A stretch of 64,000 bases of DNA from Alphaproteobacteria bacterium (lineage in GTDB: Bacteria; Pseudomonadota; Alphaproteobacteria; UBA2966; CAIVPW01): contig CANKGV010000012.1 of assembly GCA_947481575.1 (NCBI GenBank), positions 1 through 64,000 on the forward strand. Reading direction: 5' to 3'. Below, in pieces: positions 40,807 to 48,576 of this stretch (its first letter is position 1; every line of letters starts with the position of its first letter). The position numbers and the translations under genes are program-made. Under the pieces are notes generated by a model, which saw only the letters and a program-made list of their open reading frames with translations, did not search any database and had not been told where the DNA came from.

Positions 40807-41151
40807 ATGACGTACATCGTCAACGACAAGTGCATTAAGTGTAAGTACACCGACTGTGTCGAGGTGTGCCCCGTGGATTGCTTCTACGAGGGTGAGAACA
40901 TGTTGGTGATTCACCCCGACGAATGCATCGACTGCGGTGTGTGCGAGCCCGAGTGCCCCGTGGAGGCGATTCAGCCTGATACGTCGGGCCAGAATCTCGA
41001 CAAGTGGCTCGAGCTGAACCGGAAGTTTGCCCAAGCGTGGCCAAACTTGACCCGCAAGAAGCCGGCCCCAAAAGACGCGGATCAGTTCAAAGACGAAACC
41101 GGCAAGTTTGAAAAGTACTTCAAGGCGGAGCCGGGCACGGGCGACGTCTAG
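40807..41151 (+). CDS. fdxA: Seven-iron ferredoxin FdxA
   Basis: 114 aa. Cys motifs for [3Fe-4S] and [4Fe-4S] clusters: [21 protein letters not shown] and [16 protein letters not shown]. The C-terminal extension ([22 protein letters not shown]) is the FdxA signature. It is an electron carrier. It is convergent with the Fe-S/Mo oxidoreductase gene. Confidence 0.97.
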
Positions 41152-41160
41152 CCTGGCCCG

Positions 41161-43647
41161 CTAGAGCCGAATCGGCAGCGACCGGACGCGGCGGCCAAGC
41201 GCCGCCGACACCGCGTTTGCAAGCGCTGGGGCGACCGGCGGCAAGCCCGGTTCGCCAACCCCGCCCGGCGCCTCCCGGCTGGGCACGATGTGCACCTCGA
41301 TGACCGGCGCCTCGGCAAACTTCAGGATCGGGTAGTCCTCGAAGGTACGTTGCTCAACAGCGCCATCGCGGAACGTGATTTCGCCCTTGTAGGCTGCCCC
41401 GAGGCCCTGGATGATCGCGCCCTCCATTTGGGCGGCGATGATGTTGGGGTTGACGATGCTGCCGCAGTAGACCGCGCACACGACGCGGTGGACCTTGATC
41501 CTGCCGTCCGTCACGGAAGCTTCCACCACCTCGGCGACGTAGCTTCCAAACGAGCGGTAGCAGGCGATGCCGCGATGACGGCCTGGCGACGGCGGTGTCC
41601 CCCAGCCCGCACGAGATGCCGCCAGAGCGAGCACGCCACCAAGACGCGGCGTACCAGTGAGCAAGGCAGCGCGATACTCCACCGGATCGCGACCGGCGGC
41701 GGCGGCAAGCTCATCAATAAAGCACTCGACCGCGAACGAGTTCTGACTCGCGCCGACGGCACGCCAAGCACCGAGGGGAACCCCCGGATCGACCGCCACG
41801 TGCTCGATGCGCAGATTGGGAATCGCGTAATGGACGTGGATGCCGTCGAACGAGATGCCAGGACCGGCAACCCGCTGCAGCCAAGCAGTCGGCATTCCGT
41901 CAGCACCGATCGCACCGCGCATCAGCGTCCGGTTGGCGGGGCGGTAGAAGTCGTGGCCCATGTCGTCTTCGCGCGTCCATAGCACCCGCACGGGACGGTC
42001 GACGGCCATCGCAACTTGCACCGCCTCGGCAACGAAATCGCTATGCATGCGGCGGCCGAACCCGCCACCCATATACGTGGCGTGGACCGTCACATCGCGG
42101 TCGCGCAACCCGGAGACGATGGCAGCCGCGCTCCGCGCCTCGCCGAGCGCCTGTGTCGGGGCCCACACCTCGCACCGGCCGCGAGCCACATGCGCTGTGC
42201 AGTTCATCGGCTCCATGGTCCCGTGGGCCTGGAACGGGGTGGTGTACCTTGCCTCGATCACCGACCCGGCGCGCCCCAGGGCTGCAGCAACGTCGCCAGC
42301 AGTGCGCGCGCTACGACCGGACTTGACGAGGCCGGCGTCGAGCGCGCTGGCGATTGCGCTGCTGCTGGGGCCGGACGCGGCGTTCCAGCGCATTGCCAAC
42401 GCGTCGCGGCCGCGTTGCGCAGAGAGAAACGTCTCGCCGACCACCGCGATGCCCGCCGGGACTTCGACCACAGCGACTACCCCTCGGACACGGCGGGCAG
42501 CATCCGTATCGTAGCGCCCGATGCCAACACCGTCGTGGGCCTTGCGGGCGACAAGGGCGACCAACGCGCCGGGCGGTGCCGCATCGATCCCGAATATTGT
42601 TTCGCCGCGCACGTGTCCCGGGACCTCGATCCGTGGCGCTGCCGTACCAATCAGTGCAAATTGACTCGGGTCCTTTGGGACCACCGGCGCCGGCGGTAGT
42701 ATTTGCGCCGCGGCGGAAGCAAGTTCGCCATAGGTAGCGGTCTTGTTGCTTAGGAGGTGGCGCACGATGGCGCGTTCGGCAACGCATTCCTGCACCGGGA
42801 CACGCCACCGCTGCGCTGCCGCGGTCACCAGCATCATCCGGGCACTGGCCCCTGCAAGGCGCAGCGGGTCCCACGACGACCGCACGCTGGTGCTGCCACC
42901 GGTGGACTGATCGCCGAACAACGGATTGGTGTACGCGTCGTCGACCGGTGCGAACTCAGTGCTGATCTGGTCAAGGCCGACTTCCAGTTCTTCCGCCACA
43001 AGCATCGTCAGTCCGGTCACGATTCCCTGGCCCATCTCGGCACGGTCGACCCGAATCGTGACTGAATTGTCCCGACCGATTTCTACCCAGGGGTTGAGCC
43101 TGTGCCGTGGAGCGTTACCTGCGGGGGGGCGGGCTCCAAGGGGTTTGGCCGCCGGGGCGCCAACTGCAGCCGCCCGGTGCAACGCTTTGCGGACACGTGG
43201 ATAGCTGCCGCAACGGCACAGCACTTGCGACATCGCCAGGTCGACAGCGCCATCGCTGGGCGTCGGTGAGCGGCTCAGTAGAGCGGCAGCCGCCATGACC
43301 ATGCCGGGCTGGCAATAGCCACACTGCGGCACCTGCTCGGCGATCCAGGCTTCGATCACCCGGTGACCAGACGAAGCCAGGCCTTCGATGGTGGTTACCG
43401 AGCTGCCAGCAACCGAGTGGATGGGAAGCATGCAGGCCTTGGCGGCCAAGCCGTCAACATGGACGGTACAGATGCCGCACACGCCGACCCCGCAGCCGTA
43501 CTTGGTACCGGTCAGGTTTAGTTGCTCGCGCAATGCCCACAGCAGTGGGGTCCCGGGATCCGCAGAAATGGCCACCGGTTGGCCGTTGACGGTAAGATTG
43601 ATCGGGGTTGAGTCCATGTCAGGGCGGTTGATTTGGGCCGTGCTCAT
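41161..43647 (-). CDS. Fused [2Fe-2S]/molybdopterin oxidoreductase (IorA-IorB-like)
   Basis: 828 aa from ATG 43647; ATG 43662 and 43617 are alternatives. An N-terminal 2Fe-2S domain (about 15-160) has [17 protein letters not shown], then CGYCQPGM and [14 protein letters not shown]. After a Pro-rich linker the molybdopterin domain follows (from about 185): [48 protein letters not shown], and the catalytic Glu in [10 protein letters not shown]. Relatives (isoquinoline 1-oxidoreductase, aldehyde dehydrogenases) encode these as two genes; here they are one chain. No FAD domain and no Tat motif is seen. It probably hydroxylates an N-heterocycle or aldehyde. Confidence 0.88.
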
Positions 43648-43886
43648 GTGCTTTTCGAACAATTCGTGCTATCGGTAGTCCAGTACGGGTCGCAACCATC
43701 CGAAAACACGGTTCGGACGTCCACAATCGCGGGGTCGGGGAGCGATTGGGGCCAGTTGAGGCGTTCTTTTGCTTCTCAGGAGCTCCGCGAAACAGCCATT
43801 TCGACCGGCCGCGCCGCCGTTGTGCCGAGAGCACTCCGCCGCGCGGGCCGTCGCACCCGGAAACATACGGAGAAGTTTAGAAGCCG
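43648..43886. promoter_or_regulatory. Divergent promoter region, oxidoreductase / carD
   Basis: About 240 bases between divergent genes. The carD ribosome binding site is ACGGAGAAG before ATG 43887. I see no clear hexamer pair or inverted repeat. Confidence 0.4.
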
Positions 43887-44390
43887 ATGACCAAGCGCAA
43901 GAGTCATGAGTTCGGGCCAAAGGACTATATCGTGTATCCGACCCACGGGGTTGGGTACATCCAGGCCATCGAGCAGACCGAGATCGCCGGGATGTCGATC
44001 GAGTTGTTCGTGATCATCTTCACGAAGGACAAGATGACGCTGCGCGTGCCCGTCCAAAAGGCAGCGCAAGTGGGTATGCGCAAGCTGTCGACGCCCAAGA
44101 CCATGGACTCGGCATTGGCAACACTGCGCGGCCGCGCGCGGGTAAAGCGCACCATGTGGAGCCGGCGTGCGCAGGAGTACGAGGCCAAGATCAATTCCGG
44201 GGACCCCGTGGCCATCGCGGAGGTGATCCGCGACTTGCACCGGAGTGCCAATCAACCGGACCAGTCCTACAGCGAACGCCAAATTTACGAAGCGGCGCTG
44301 GAGCGGCTCGCGCGCGAGTTGGCCGTCGTCGAGAAGATCGACGAGCAGGCAGCGACGGAGCGGCTCGAAAAGCTGCTGCGCGCTGCGTAG
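43887..44390 (+). CDS. CarD-family transcriptional regulator
   Basis: 167 aa. The N-terminal RNA-polymerase-interaction (Tudor-like) domain is clear: GPKDYIVYPTHGVGYIQAIEQTEIAG, then FVIIFTKDKMTLRVP. The C-terminal helical DNA-binding part has TMWSRRAQEYEAKINSGDPVAIAEVIRDL and ERQIYEAALERLARELA. CarD stabilises open complexes, affecting rRNA and stress promoters. fdxA and carD are often neighbours in this class; the Mo enzyme gene separates them here. Confidence 0.95.
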   Translation: MTKRKSHEFGPKDYIVYPTHGVGYIQAIEQTEIAGMSIELFVIIFTKDKMTLRVPVQKAAQVGMRKLSTPKTMDSALATLRGRARVKRTMWSRRAQEYEAKINSGDPVAIAEVIRDLHRSANQPDQSYSERQIYEAALERLARELAVVEKIDEQAATERLEKLLRAA

Positions 44391-44451: not shown

Positions 44452-45255
44452 ATGGTCGCAGATCCCGCCAGCTTCTTTTCCGTCCTGAAGGCCGCCCGCC
44501 GCGTGTGGGCGGTCGGCGCCATCCATGGCGAGGCGGGCCGCCTCCGCGCGTTGCATGCAGTCCTAGAGCAGCGGCTGCAGCCCGGCGACCGGATCGTCTA
44601 CCTCGGGAACTACCTTGGCTGGGGCCCAGATATCCAGGGCACGCAGGAGGAGTTGCTGCGGCAGCGCATCGCATGGCTGGCGCGGCCGGGGATGTTCGCT
44701 GCCGACGTCGCCTATCTGCGCGGGGCGCAGGAGGAGATGTGGCGCAAGCTGCTCCAACTGCAGTTCGCGCCGAACCCGCGCGAGGTTCTGGAGTGGATGC
44801 TCGGCCAAGGCGTGGCAGCTACCCTTCAGTCGTACGGCCATGACCCCAAGGACGTGCGCATCGCCTGCCGCGAAGGCGCGTTGGCGCTGACCAAGTGGGC
44901 GAATCAGGTCCGCTCCAGCCTGCACGCGCGGCCTGGGCACGACGAGTTGCTGGCGGCGCTTCGGCGTGCCGCCTACACCGAACAATCGGAGCTGCTGTTT
45001 GTTGCAGCGGGCGTTGACCCCGAACGGCCATTGAGCCAGCAAGGCGACGTGTTCTGGTGGGGCACGGGATATTTCGGGCGAATCGAAGCGTATGATGGGT
45101 TTCGCCGGATCATACGCGGGTATGACCGGGCGCGCCGCGGTCTGGACCTGGAGCGATACGCCGTGACTTTGGACGGCGGCTGCGGGTTCGGTGGAACGTT
45201 GAATGCCGCCTGCTTCCAACTGGATGGCTCGCTGGCCGACTGGGTCGAGGCCTAG
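44452..45255 (+). CDS. Metallophosphoesterase-fold protein with degenerate active site
   Basis: 267 aa from ATG 44452; the GTG at 44434 is possible. The layout follows bacterial PPP/Ap4A-hydrolase-like phosphatases, but the catalytic motifs are changed. GDIHG is GAIHGE, GDYVDRG is GNYLGWG, GNHE is RGAQEE, and the later VHAG is VAAG. The metal-binding Asp, Asn and His residues are thus mostly absent, so catalysis is unlikely by family knowledge. The gene lies between carD and rpoH. A regulatory or ligand-binding role is inference. Confidence 0.8.
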   Translation: MVADPASFFSVLKAARRVWAVGAIHGEAGRLRALHAVLEQRLQPGDRIVYLGNYLGWGPDIQGTQEELLRQRIAWLARPGMFAADVAYLRGAQEEMWRKLLQLQFAPNPREVLEWMLGQGVAATLQSYGHDPKDVRIACREGALALTKWANQVRSSLHARPGHDELLAALRRAAYTEQSELLFVAAGVDPERPLSQQGDVFWWGTGYFGRIEAYDGFRRIIRGYDRARRGLDLERYAVTLDGGCGFGGTLNAACFQLDGSLADWVEA

Positions 45256-45333
45256 GGCCCAAAATCCAAAGCAACAATAGGGCTTTTGGGAGCGCGGCGG
45301 ATTGCCGCGCGCATGGCTGCATGGCCTTGGCAT

Positions 45334-45417: not shown

Positions 45418-46296
45418 ATGAGTTACCTCGAACGGCCACAAAACCGCACTGCCGATCGCCAATTCATCCGCAAGGCCATGTCTGTGCCGCTGCTCGAACG
45501 AGAGCAGGAGCAAGAACTTGCCAAGCGCTGGCGTGACAAGGGCGACACCTCGGCTTTGCATGCTCTGGTAGCTCCGTACATGCGCCTGGTGATCAGTGCC
45601 GCGACGCGGTACCGGCACTATGGGCTGCCCGCCGGCGACTTGATTCAGGAAGGCAACGTGGGCCTGATGCAGGCTGCGGCCCGGTTCGAGCCGGCGCGTG
45701 AAGTCCGCTTCTCAACCTATGCCATGTGGTGGATTCGCTCGGCGATGCAGGAGTACGTGCTCCGCAACTGGTCGATCGTGCGAACCGGCACGACCGCTGC
45801 CCAGAAGTCGCTGTTTTTCAACCTGCGCCGCCTGCGCGCACGAATCGAAGGTGGTAACACGAGCGCCGACCTGGACAGCGGTGCCAAGGCGGAAATCGCG
45901 CGCGTGCTGCGCGTGCCCCTGCGCGAAGTCGAAGACATGAACCAGCGGCTGCAGGGTCCGGATCGGTCGCTCAATGCGCCTTTGGGCGAAGAAGGCGACG
46001 CTGAGTGGCAAGACATCGTTCCGGATGATGGTCCAAACCCGGAAGAAATCGTCACCGCCGCGCACGACTCGCTCACACGCTCGGCGTGGGTACGTAGCGC
46101 TGTCGCGGAACTGACACCGCGCGAGCAGACCATCATCCGCAAGCGCCGTCTGACGGAAGAATCACAAACGTTGGAAACGCTCGGCCAGTCCCTGGGCATC
46201 AGCAAGGAGCGCGTTCGCCAGATCGAACAAGAGGCCCTGGAGAAGCTGCGTTTGGCAATCCTGCGCCGCGCGGGCGACCCGAGTCAGATTGCGTAG
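45418..46296 (+). CDS. rpoH: RNA polymerase heat-shock sigma factor
   Basis: 292 aa from ATG 45418 (MSYLERPQNR), with CGGAGG just upstream; the track start 44 codons earlier lies in the promoter. Region 2: LVAPYMRLVISAATRYRHYGLPAGDLIQEGNVGLM and RFSTYAMWWIRSAMQEYVLRNWS. The RpoH box QKSLFFNLRRLR is present, and region 4 ends with TLETLGQSLGISKERVRQIEQEALEKLR. It directs heat-shock transcription. Convergent with the M48 protease gene. Confidence 0.96.
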   Translation: MSYLERPQNRTADRQFIRKAMSVPLLEREQEQELAKRWRDKGDTSALHALVAPYMRLVISAATRYRHYGLPAGDLIQEGNVGLMQAAARFEPAREVRFSTYAMWWIRSAMQEYVLRNWSIVRTGTTAAQKSLFFNLRRLRARIEGGNTSADLDSGAKAEIARVLRVPLREVEDMNQRLQGPDRSLNAPLGEEGDAEWQDIVPDDGPNPEEIVTAAHDSLTRSAWVRSAVAELTPREQTIIRKRRLTEESQTLETLGQSLGISKERVRQIEQEALEKLRLAILRRAGDPSQIA

Positions 46297-46306
46297 CCCG
46301 TGAATG

Positions 46307-47800
46307 CTAAGGGGCAATTACCTTCAGCCGCTCGCCGTTGGCCACCGTGTGGTGCGGCGAGACTTGGTTGAGCGCCGCCAGCCACGCCAAGGGGTGGTCT
46401 ACGACGCGCATCTGGGCAGCGACGGCCTCGAGCGGCGTAGCCTCATCCGCCGTGTAGACTCGCAGCCGTAGCGGCTGCCAGTTCTTCGCCTCGTCGGCGG
46501 AAATGCGGCGAAAGGATTGGGGGGTTCCCCAAACCTCCTCGATCATGGCCTCCGACATCGATTCTGGCACGAAGAACTGGAACCGGAACACCGTGTTATC
46601 GGTCACGCGGATTGCGGCCAGGAGAATCGAGCCGCCGCCCTGCTCAGGCTTCATCCGCGCGCGCGCCTTGGCGAATAGGACGCCATCCGAAGCCCCCGAC
46701 CACACCGCCTCGAACTTCAGCTCGGAACCGGTATTGCGCCGCAAATAGTCCGCCATGTCCGTAGGCTGCGGCTTTTGTGTGGTTTGGCCATCGAAGCGCA
46801 TACCCGCGCCGTCTGGCCCTTCGGCCACGATCGTGCGGCCCGACCGTGTGAAGTGAAAACCCGGTGGCAGGTCAAAAGTATAGCGGCCCGTTGTATCCAC
46901 GAACCGCGCCCCCTGCACCATGCCCTCGGCGGGGCGACGGCCAAATATCATCCCATCGATCGCGTTGAGAAACTCGGTGCGCCCGGTAAACCAGGGTTGC
47001 GGCCCAGGAGCCGCGACCGTCAGGTAACCGGCGACCGGTCCGTCGGTCGAATCGCTGCTCCCGCGCTGGTAGCCGATGACAACGCTGCGCGCGACGCGCG
47101 AGGCCGCCGCGACTCGATCGGGGATATCGGGGTGGGTCGTATCCCTGGGTGCGGGTGGCGCCATGCCATACGCTGCCGCGACATTCCCCTCTGCCTCGAT
47201 CGCGTTGAGAAACCGCGCCTGGGCCGTCGGATCGTAACCCGCCGCCGCGATTAGGCGGACACCAACCGCATCCGCCTCGAATTCCTGTTCCGTCGTGAAC
47301 GCGTGCATTGCAGCCGCAGCTTCGCTGCGGCCAGTAGCAGGCCGTTCGGCGGCGAATTGGCTGCGGCGAGCACCGTGCCGCAAGATGACGTGGGAAATCT
47401 CGTGGGCTAGGACCGCGGCAACTTCGGATTCATCGTTCGCCACCGCCAGCAATGCCCGGCTCACGTAGACGTAGCCGCCGGGCAGCGCGAATGCGAATAC
47501 TTCGGAGTTGTCGAGTACGTAGAAGTGAAATTGGTAGGCAACTTCATAGCTGGTGATAGACCGCACCACGCGGTCGCCCACGGCCGTGACGTACGCACCA
47601 ATATTCCCGTCTCTGTATTCGCCGCCAAAGCGAGCCAGCATCGCCGGATGCTGCGCGGCGGCGCCAATCGCCTCCATTTCGGGGGTGGGTTCCTGGCTCG
47701 CAACCAGGGGACGGGCGTCCTCGGCAACAGCCAAGCCGTTAGCCGTCACCAAACCGGTGAACAGCGCGGCGGCCAAAGTCCAGGGGACTAGCCTGCTCAT
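46307..47800 (-). CDS. M48-family metalloprotease (BepA/YggG-like)
   Basis: 497 aa from ATG 47800, overlapping the nuclease-like gene by ATGA. A signal peptide (VPWTLAAALFTGLVTANGLAVAED) is followed by the M48 domain: zinc motif HEISH in VAAVLAHEISHVILRHG and the third ligand in EFEADAVGVRLI. Instead of TPR repeats, the C-terminal half is a beta-rich domain of unknown type, ending with a LysM-like segment (PLEAVAAQMRV... LAALNQVSPHHTVANGERLKVI). Envelope protein quality control is inferred. Confidence 0.88.
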   Translation of the reverse strand: MSRLVPWTLAAALFTGLVTANGLAVAEDARPLVASQEPTPEMEAIGAAAQHPAMLARFGGEYRDGNIGAYVTAVGDRVVRSITSYEVAYQFHFYVLDNSEVFAFALPGGYVYVSRALLAVANDESEVAAVLAHEISHVILRHGARRSQFAAERPATGRSEAAAAMHAFTTEQEFEADAVGVRLIAAAGYDPTAQARFLNAIEAEGNVAAAYGMAPPAPRDTTHPDIPDRVAAASRVARSVVIGYQRGSSDSTDGPVAGYLTVAAPGPQPWFTGRTEFLNAIDGMIFGRRPAEGMVQGARFVDTTGRYTFDLPPGFHFTRSGRTIVAEGPDGAGMRFDGQTTQKPQPTDMADYLRRNTGSELKFEAVWSGASDGVLFAKARARMKPEQGGGSILLAAIRVTDNTVFRFQFFVPESMSEAMIEEVWGTPQSFRRISADEAKNWQPLRLRVYTADEATPLEAVAAQMRVVDHPLAWLAALNQVSPHHTVANGERLKVIAP

Positions 47801-48576
47801 TCGTTGAGCAACTCTATCTGCTCCGGATGGGTCACGTCTATCATCTGTCCGTTGAGCGAGTACAGCCATCCACGCACCCTGACGCTATGCCCAGCTAGGG
47901 CCAAGAGGTCGATCCGTTCCGCACGAAAGACCCGTGCGTCCTGGGCCGATACCGAAACCGTGAAGTCTGTACGCCAGTCGAGGCCGAAGTTGAGATAGAT
48001 GCGCCCGTCGACCGTATCGGTGGCGAGCACCCGAGCCTGCACGATGGCAAAGCCGTTCAAATGCTGAGCGGTCTGCTCGGGTGAGAGTACCGAATACGCG
48101 GGCGACGCCCACAGCCCGACGCGCGCCTCGCGCGCGGTGGCTTCCAGCGCGAGCATTTCGCTCACCAAGGCGCGACTGTCCGGAAGGCTGTGGACCCGCG
48201 CCAGACCACGCGCGAGGATCTCGCCTTGGATCCAGCGCCCCTGGGCATCGTAAAGGTGTGCCTGCAACCATCCGTACCGATCCACCGCAGTTGCACCCAA
48301 CAACAGGTGCACATTCCGTTCCAACACAAGTTGCGCGAGGGCAGACACGGTGTCGCGGGCGTATGGCTGCGCCGGCAGATCCCCCATCGCCATAGCGGGT
48401 GCCTCAATCCCAACTAGGTGGACCGTTCGCCCGTCGGCGAGAACCACCGTGGCGCCATCGATGATCTGGCGCACGACCGCCCACCCGCCATCCGTAAGGG
48501 CAGGGGCTGCCCGCGCGTTGTGCACGGACACACCAAGGACCGCAACGCCGAGCAAGGCAACCAGGAGGGCCCGCAT
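47797..48576 (-). CDS. Thermonuclease-fold protein with degenerate active site
   Basis: 259 aa with a signal peptide (MRALLVALLGVAVLGVSVHNARAA). The SNase fold is recognisable: RQIIDGATVVLADG, VHLVGIEAPAM, DRYGWLQAHLY, and ARGLARVH. Compared with staphylococcal nuclease, Asp21 is Ala (DGAT for DGDT), Arg35 is His, Asp40 is Glu, Glu43 is Ala and Arg87 is Trp. The key catalytic residues therefore appear lost. A second beta domain (about 170-255) resembles an OB-like extension. It is translationally coupled to the M48 gene, so the two proteins may act together in the periplasm. Confidence 0.82.
   Translation of the reverse strand: MRALLVALLGVAVLGVSVHNARAAPALTDGGWAVVRQIIDGATVVLADGRTVHLVGIEAPAMAMGDLPAQPYARDTVSALAQLVLERNVHLLLGATAVDRYGWLQAHLYDAQGRWIQGEILARGLARVHSLPDSRALVSEMLALEATAREARVGLWASPAYSVLSPEQTAQHLNGFAIVQARVLATDTVDGRIYLNFGLDWRTDFTVSVSAQDARVFRAERIDLLALAGHSVRVRGWLYSLNGQMIDVTHPEQIELLNE

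Follow-up and report, generated by a model that had tools for sequence, protein, structure and literature searches.

A long-fixed PPP-fold pseudophosphatase candidate encoded next to carD in Alphaproteobacteria

The gene immediately downstream of carD in a 64,000-nt stretch of an alphaproteobacterial contig (hereinafter, the window) is, on balance, best explained as encoding a long-fixed pseudophosphatase, that is, a non-catalytic PPP-fold binding protein, with the CarD/RNA polymerase circuit as its most likely place of action. The components of this reading differ in strength: the protein is very probably non-catalytic as a metallophosphatase and quite likely acts by binding, its action on the CarD/RNA polymerase axis is suggested tentatively, and a direct tie to RpoH seems improbable. 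The fold, the ligand loss, the single clade, the purifying selection, and the linkage to carD were all computed here. The gene, its former active-site motifs, and its immediate neighbors are listed in Table 1; a phosphatase-like reading frame between carD and rpoH, reported in the first-pass annotation of the window, is confirmed.

Table 1. Coordinates of the pseudophosphatase gene, its motif remnants, and the flanking genes in the window.
Feature	Coordinates	Strand	Description
carD/cdnL	43887..44390	+	Pfam CarD_TRCF_RID and CarD_C; directly upstream of the pseudophosphatase gene, 61 bp gap; product ends Ala-Ala
PPP-fold pseudophosphatase gene	44452..45255	+	267 aa; ATG at 44452, stop ends at 45255
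Motif 1 remnant GAIHGE (residues 22–27)	44515..44532	+	Canonical GDxHG; ligand D replaced by A23, H25 kept
Motif 2 remnant GNYLGWG (residues 52–58)	44605..44625	+	Canonical GDYVDRG; D to N53, D to G56, R to W57
Motif 3 remnant RGAQEE (residues 90–95)	44719..44736	+	Canonical (L)RGNHE; N to A92, catalytic H to Q93; R90 and E94 kept
Motif 4 remnant VAAG (residues 184–187)	45001..45012	+	Canonical VHAG; H to A185
Motif 5 remnant IRGY (residues 221–224)	45112..45123	+	Canonical V(H)GHT/VHGH; H to Y224
Sigma-32 family gene, RpoH2-like type	45418..46296	+	NF005693 over curated cut-off; ATG at 45418, 162 bp downstream of the pseudophosphatase gene

Motif positions were assigned from an alignment with 18 intact PPPs carrying GDIHG, GDYVDRG, GNHE, HAG, and HGHT. 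The first four altered strings in Table 1 had been noted at first pass and are all present, and the fifth motif is altered as well. The six metal-ligand positions are occupied by A23, H25, N53, A92, A185, and Y224, and that of the catalytic histidine (general acid) by Q93. The earlier statement that every metal ligand is lost hence holds for five of the six, H25 being kept both here and in 108 of 126 distinct orthologs. Compared with the GDxHG – GDxxDRG – GNHE signature and six ligands of active PPPs, the window protein has one ligand left, and the orthologs, from zero to three. The same genome encodes an ordinary PPP (G000:C1:222948-223595, minus strand; 34% identity over the shared region), which keeps all motifs and matches PF00149. 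Judging by these residues, the window protein is predicted to be incapable of the known bimetal PPP reaction; residual metal or ligand binding may persist, as H25 and H185 (the latter in 77 of 126 orthologs) are often kept.

The AlphaFold (AF2) model built from a 22-sequence alignment has mean pLDDT 94 and pTM 0.92, and its top Foldseek matches in PDB are 2qjc (Ap4A phosphatase, E = 4e-10) and 1g5b (lambda phosphatase), followed by PP2A, PP1, PP5, and Rhizobiales-like phosphatase 2, with probability 1.00 for 2qjc, 1g5b, PP1, PP2A, and PP5. Sequence profiles match 2qjc (5e-7) and RLPH2 (5vjv; 9e-5). As the model, Foldseek, and the profiles agree, the protein is assigned, at the level of the predicted structure, to bacterial-type PPP domains with the PPP catalytic-domain fold; the fold is thus kept, as had been proposed. 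At the same time, the reading frame has no match in Pfam or NCBIfam, none of the 22 aligned family members has a convincing Pfam match, and PF00149 (Metallophos) is matched by both paralogs tested but not by the pseudophosphatase. The NCBIfam ApaH model (symmetrical bis(5'-nucleosyl)-tetraphosphatase, PRK00166) gives no match to the window protein and weak matches to nine of the 22 members (best 6e-7), all short of the curated cut-off. In a tblastn search of plasmids, the only match was weak, its subject being annotated as a metallophosphoesterase-family protein.

Orthologs were sought in 61 and then in 387 alphaproteobacterial genomes, with presence tallied by hand, and are cleanly separated from other PPPs (E < 1e-50 versus E > 1e-20). 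The gene is present in 145 of the 387 genomes, carriers including Nitrospirillum amazonense, Magnetospirillum sp. UT-4, Oceanibaculum pacificum, and several Sneathiella, while in 398 genomes across the phylum no match at 1e-20 was found outside Alphaproteobacteria. No ligands are retained in 11 of the 126 distinct orthologs, one in 35, two in 78, and three in two, compared to all six in each of the 18 related PPPs, including one in the source genome. Apart from H25 and H185, the canonical residues are nearly absent: D23 is found in none of the 126 orthologs, D53 in one, N92 in five, and H224 in six. The replacements are uniform at D53 (N in 118), D56 (G in 125, D in none), and the catalytic H93 (Q in 116, H in two), the DRG arginine R57 is kept in 42, and the VAAG change is local, 77 orthologs reading VHAG there. 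Position 53 is D (motif GD) in the ortholog from Magnetospirillum sp. UT-4 (L104) alone, and this protein still lacks D23, N92, H93, and H224.

In the maximum-likelihood tree the orthologs form one clade (SH-aLRT 100). D23 changes state once, and H25 and H185, 12 and 15 times, respectively, as expected if metal is no longer held. Substitutions shared by 126 orthologs of one clade, together with the confident PPP fold, argue that the motif changes are not due to chance, and the wide occurrence of canonical motifs points to a change from active to inactive. In close pairs dN/dS is mostly about 0.03–0.2, hence the gene is under selection and not decaying. Mean entropy is 1.06 bits in the motif columns versus 2.02 bits in the rest of the alignment, with no random set as low in 20,000. 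The family therefore combines loss of catalytic residues across orthologs with purifying selection, as is characteristic of pseudophosphatases, and catalytic loss is well supported by these comparisons. Orthologs keeping their ligands had been named in the first-pass annotation as evidence against a selected non-catalytic role; none keeps more than three of six, the first aspartate is gone in 126 of 126, and the proposed role gains support from both the ligand loss and the low dN/dS. That the gene is a disappearing relic, or was mutated locally and recently, might be suspected from its absence in 242 of 387 genomes, but the substitutions shared by the 126 orthologs, the single stem loss, the low dN/dS, and frames that are open nearly throughout refute this, and we regard it as extremely improbable.

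A divergent enzyme with another metal arrangement or chemistry would be consistent with strong conservation of H25, H35, H163, D199, D241, and E94, and a changed DRG motif is seen in some PPPs, such as trypanosomatid ApaH-like phosphatases (PMC2175518). However, H163, D241, and E94 are also found in the canonical paralogs and hence belong to the shared scaffold, practically no member retains the metal-bridging or the metal-1 aspartate, and the repeated changes of H25 and H185 on the tree are those of unneeded ligands, which makes retained enzymatic activity of this kind quite improbable.

The long-fixed loss of the metal site, along with the linkage to carD described below, therefore suggests that the pseudophosphatase probably acts by binding rather than by removing phosphate. 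The conserved residues fall into two sets, one shared with active PPPs as scaffold (R90, E94, and R222 in the loops; H163, Y128, and D241 elsewhere), and the other specific to the family (W19, D46, N53, G56, Q93, E95, and W202). R90 and R222 were also considered as a new invariant-arginine site; this was dropped, since they match residues of the PP1-type motifs LRGNHE and VRAHQ.

The D-to-N and H-to-Q changes resemble those introduced in the laboratory to produce dead PPPs, and the near-isosteric N53 and Q93 are held fixed with the remaining motif kept, as would befit a trap that binds and shields a phosphorylated protein. Against this, a PPP site devoid of metal should have poor affinity for phosphate, some of the active-site arginines have disappeared, and no phosphoprotein partner is known, so that we consider such a trap rather unlikely. 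Somewhat better placed, although still unlikely, is a nucleotide sensor, whose old site would bind a nucleotide such as Ap4A or (p)ppGpp without cleaving it and signal to CarD/RNA polymerase or a sigma factor. An Ap4A phosphatase is the closest solved relative, the weak matches to the tetraphosphatase model point in the same direction, two motif residues, R90 and E94, have been preserved, and conservation in the loops is high; on the other hand, the DRG arginine is mostly gone, and the WIR segment of the paralogs reads WWG here, therefore the phosphate-binding arginines of PPPs are reduced. Nucleotide or stress sensing, which had also been raised at first pass, may be taken as a reasonable lead only, based on weak similarity to Ap4A phosphatases.

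Inactive metallophosphoesterase scaffolds are known in Vps29 of the retromer and in the B subunit of eukaryotic replicative DNA polymerases. There, likewise, the fold has been kept after loss of catalysis, as an interaction module, but these proteins belong to other branches of the superfamily and to eukaryotic complexes, whereas the pseudophosphatase has no known partner. The best solved relative by both sequence and fold, 2qjc of the ApaH/ApaH-like phosphatases, still has GDxHG as well as GD in motif 2, unlike the pseudophosphatase family. Bacterial-type PPPs (lambda PP, PrpA/B-like, Rhizobiales-like) have the same fold, motif positions, and conserved loop G, R, and E, and differ in the metal ligands and catalytic histidine, which are replaced here. 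The histidine of the LXXAXPXXH signature of alpha-proteobacterial PPPs (PMC535813) corresponds to H163, present in 125 of 126 orthologs and 18 of 18 paralogs (the histidine alone being scored). Bacterial-like PPPs were surveyed in that paper, in the text of which neither “inactive” nor “catalytic residues” occurs. Kinetoplastid PPPs with substituted catalytic residues (kPPP and the second PP2B cluster) have been proposed to be non-catalytic (PMC2175518); these are eukaryotic, whereas the present family is bacterial and has a conserved gene neighborhood.

The gene is associated with carD more closely than with rpoH. Of 126 orthologs, 112 have carD directly upstream on the same strand, while rpoH is directly downstream in 46 of 124 (37%), and among the 145 gene-bearing genomes, 57 (39%, tallied by hand) yield no RpoH2-type match with E below 1e-98. 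The link to RpoH suggested at first pass is thus not borne out, and an RpoH-centered function is weakened accordingly. The order fdxA–carD, with fdxA upstream, is conserved around the gene in 85 of 100 loci. The wider block comprises genes for a SUV3-like helicase, an S4-domain protein, a TerB-like protein, FdxA, CarD, and the pseudophosphatase, and continues downstream with, sometimes, RpoH2, and then an M48 peptidase and a thermonuclease-like protein (names assigned by eye, except for carD, rpoH, and M48). Since carD directly adjoins rpoH2 in two genomes without the gene (G261 and G047), the ancestral order seems to be fdxA–carD–(pseudophosphatase)–rpoH2. In a further genome (G385; C65:39350-40738 and C6) carD and the pseudophosphatase gene are naturally separated, the former directly adjoining rpoH2 and the latter lying on a different contig, and in four lineages with 3-kb flanks (L144, L149, L153, and L155) carD is located elsewhere. 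All 13 genomes checked for CarD encode it, including all five lacking the pseudophosphatase gene. The gap between carD and the gene has a median of about 120 bp and overlaps are rare, so that the gap does not by itself point to a shared transcript; no fusion of the two (Rosetta-stone evidence) was seen in the loci examined. Inherited gene order is therefore a real alternative to functional coupling with carD.

CarD is a global regulator of rRNA transcription. What we infer about the partner and ligand of the pseudophosphatase is as follows. The bimetal center and the general acid would have been lost once, at the base of the alphaproteobacterial clade, and the PPP fold kept because it binds something. 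The protein would work stoichiometrically, holding a partner or an unhydrolyzed phospho-ligand by the former active-site loops, which have stayed well conserved (G52-N53, G56, L89-R90-G91, Q93-E94-E95, and R222-G223), together with the family-specific W19, D46, E95, and W202. CarD/RNA polymerase would be the most likely circuit, CarD being the product of the neighboring gene, and the pseudophosphatase could be, e.g., a modulator or adaptor that, under stress, controls how active CarD is or how fast it turns over.

In starved Caulobacter, ClpXP removes CdnL via its C-terminal Ala-Ala, and a (p)ppGpp-sensitive adaptor, whose identity is not known, has been raised for this clearance (PMC11034885). 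Of 117 CarD proteins of the pseudophosphatase loci, 98 end with Ala-Ala, CarD of the window among them. By analogy, the pseudophosphatase, with its PPP fold and its relationship to Ap4A phosphatases, may be a sensible candidate for a CdnL/CarD adaptor. In the boldest version, the PPP pseudophosphatases, as a family not described before and spread across Alphaproteobacteria, would serve as a dedicated CarD partner, e.g., as the still missing, nucleotide-sensitive adaptor or brake through which stress acts on CarD activity or ClpXP clearance; this is a speculation to which we assign low probability. Still, control of CarD/CdnL in starvation is an open question (PMC11034885), for which the pseudophosphatase offers a concrete candidate.

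In the open-access literature we have found no published description of this family, nor any described bacterial PPP-type pseudophosphatase. Pseudophosphatases are known mainly from eukaryotes. The protein considered here is found in over one third of the alphaproteobacterial genomes sampled, reaches the cut-off of no family in Pfam or NCBIfam, and is linked to CarD by gene order.

Promoter scanning revealed no sigma-70-type site and no EcfG-like site near rpoH, and the two terminator-like sites found by terminator scanning are weak and no more than expected by chance. An antisense frame of 256 codons (44563-45333, minus strand) is open across the gene; open antisense frames are also seen at many related loci, five of them passing a naive ORF check, and are most likely an effect of GC-rich codons. 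Upstream, an FdxA-type ferredoxin gene (40807-41151, plus strand) is separated from carD by an 833-aa ORF (41161-43662, minus strand), by eye an apparent one-chain fusion of a 2Fe-2S subunit and a molybdopterin-binding subunit of the aldehyde/isoquinoline oxidoreductase type. Downstream, genes for the M48 peptidase (Pfam) and the thermonuclease-like protein (by eye) face the carD block (46307-47869 and 47797-48576, minus strand), and ORFs resembling this pair are seen again at about 65 of 100 related loci.
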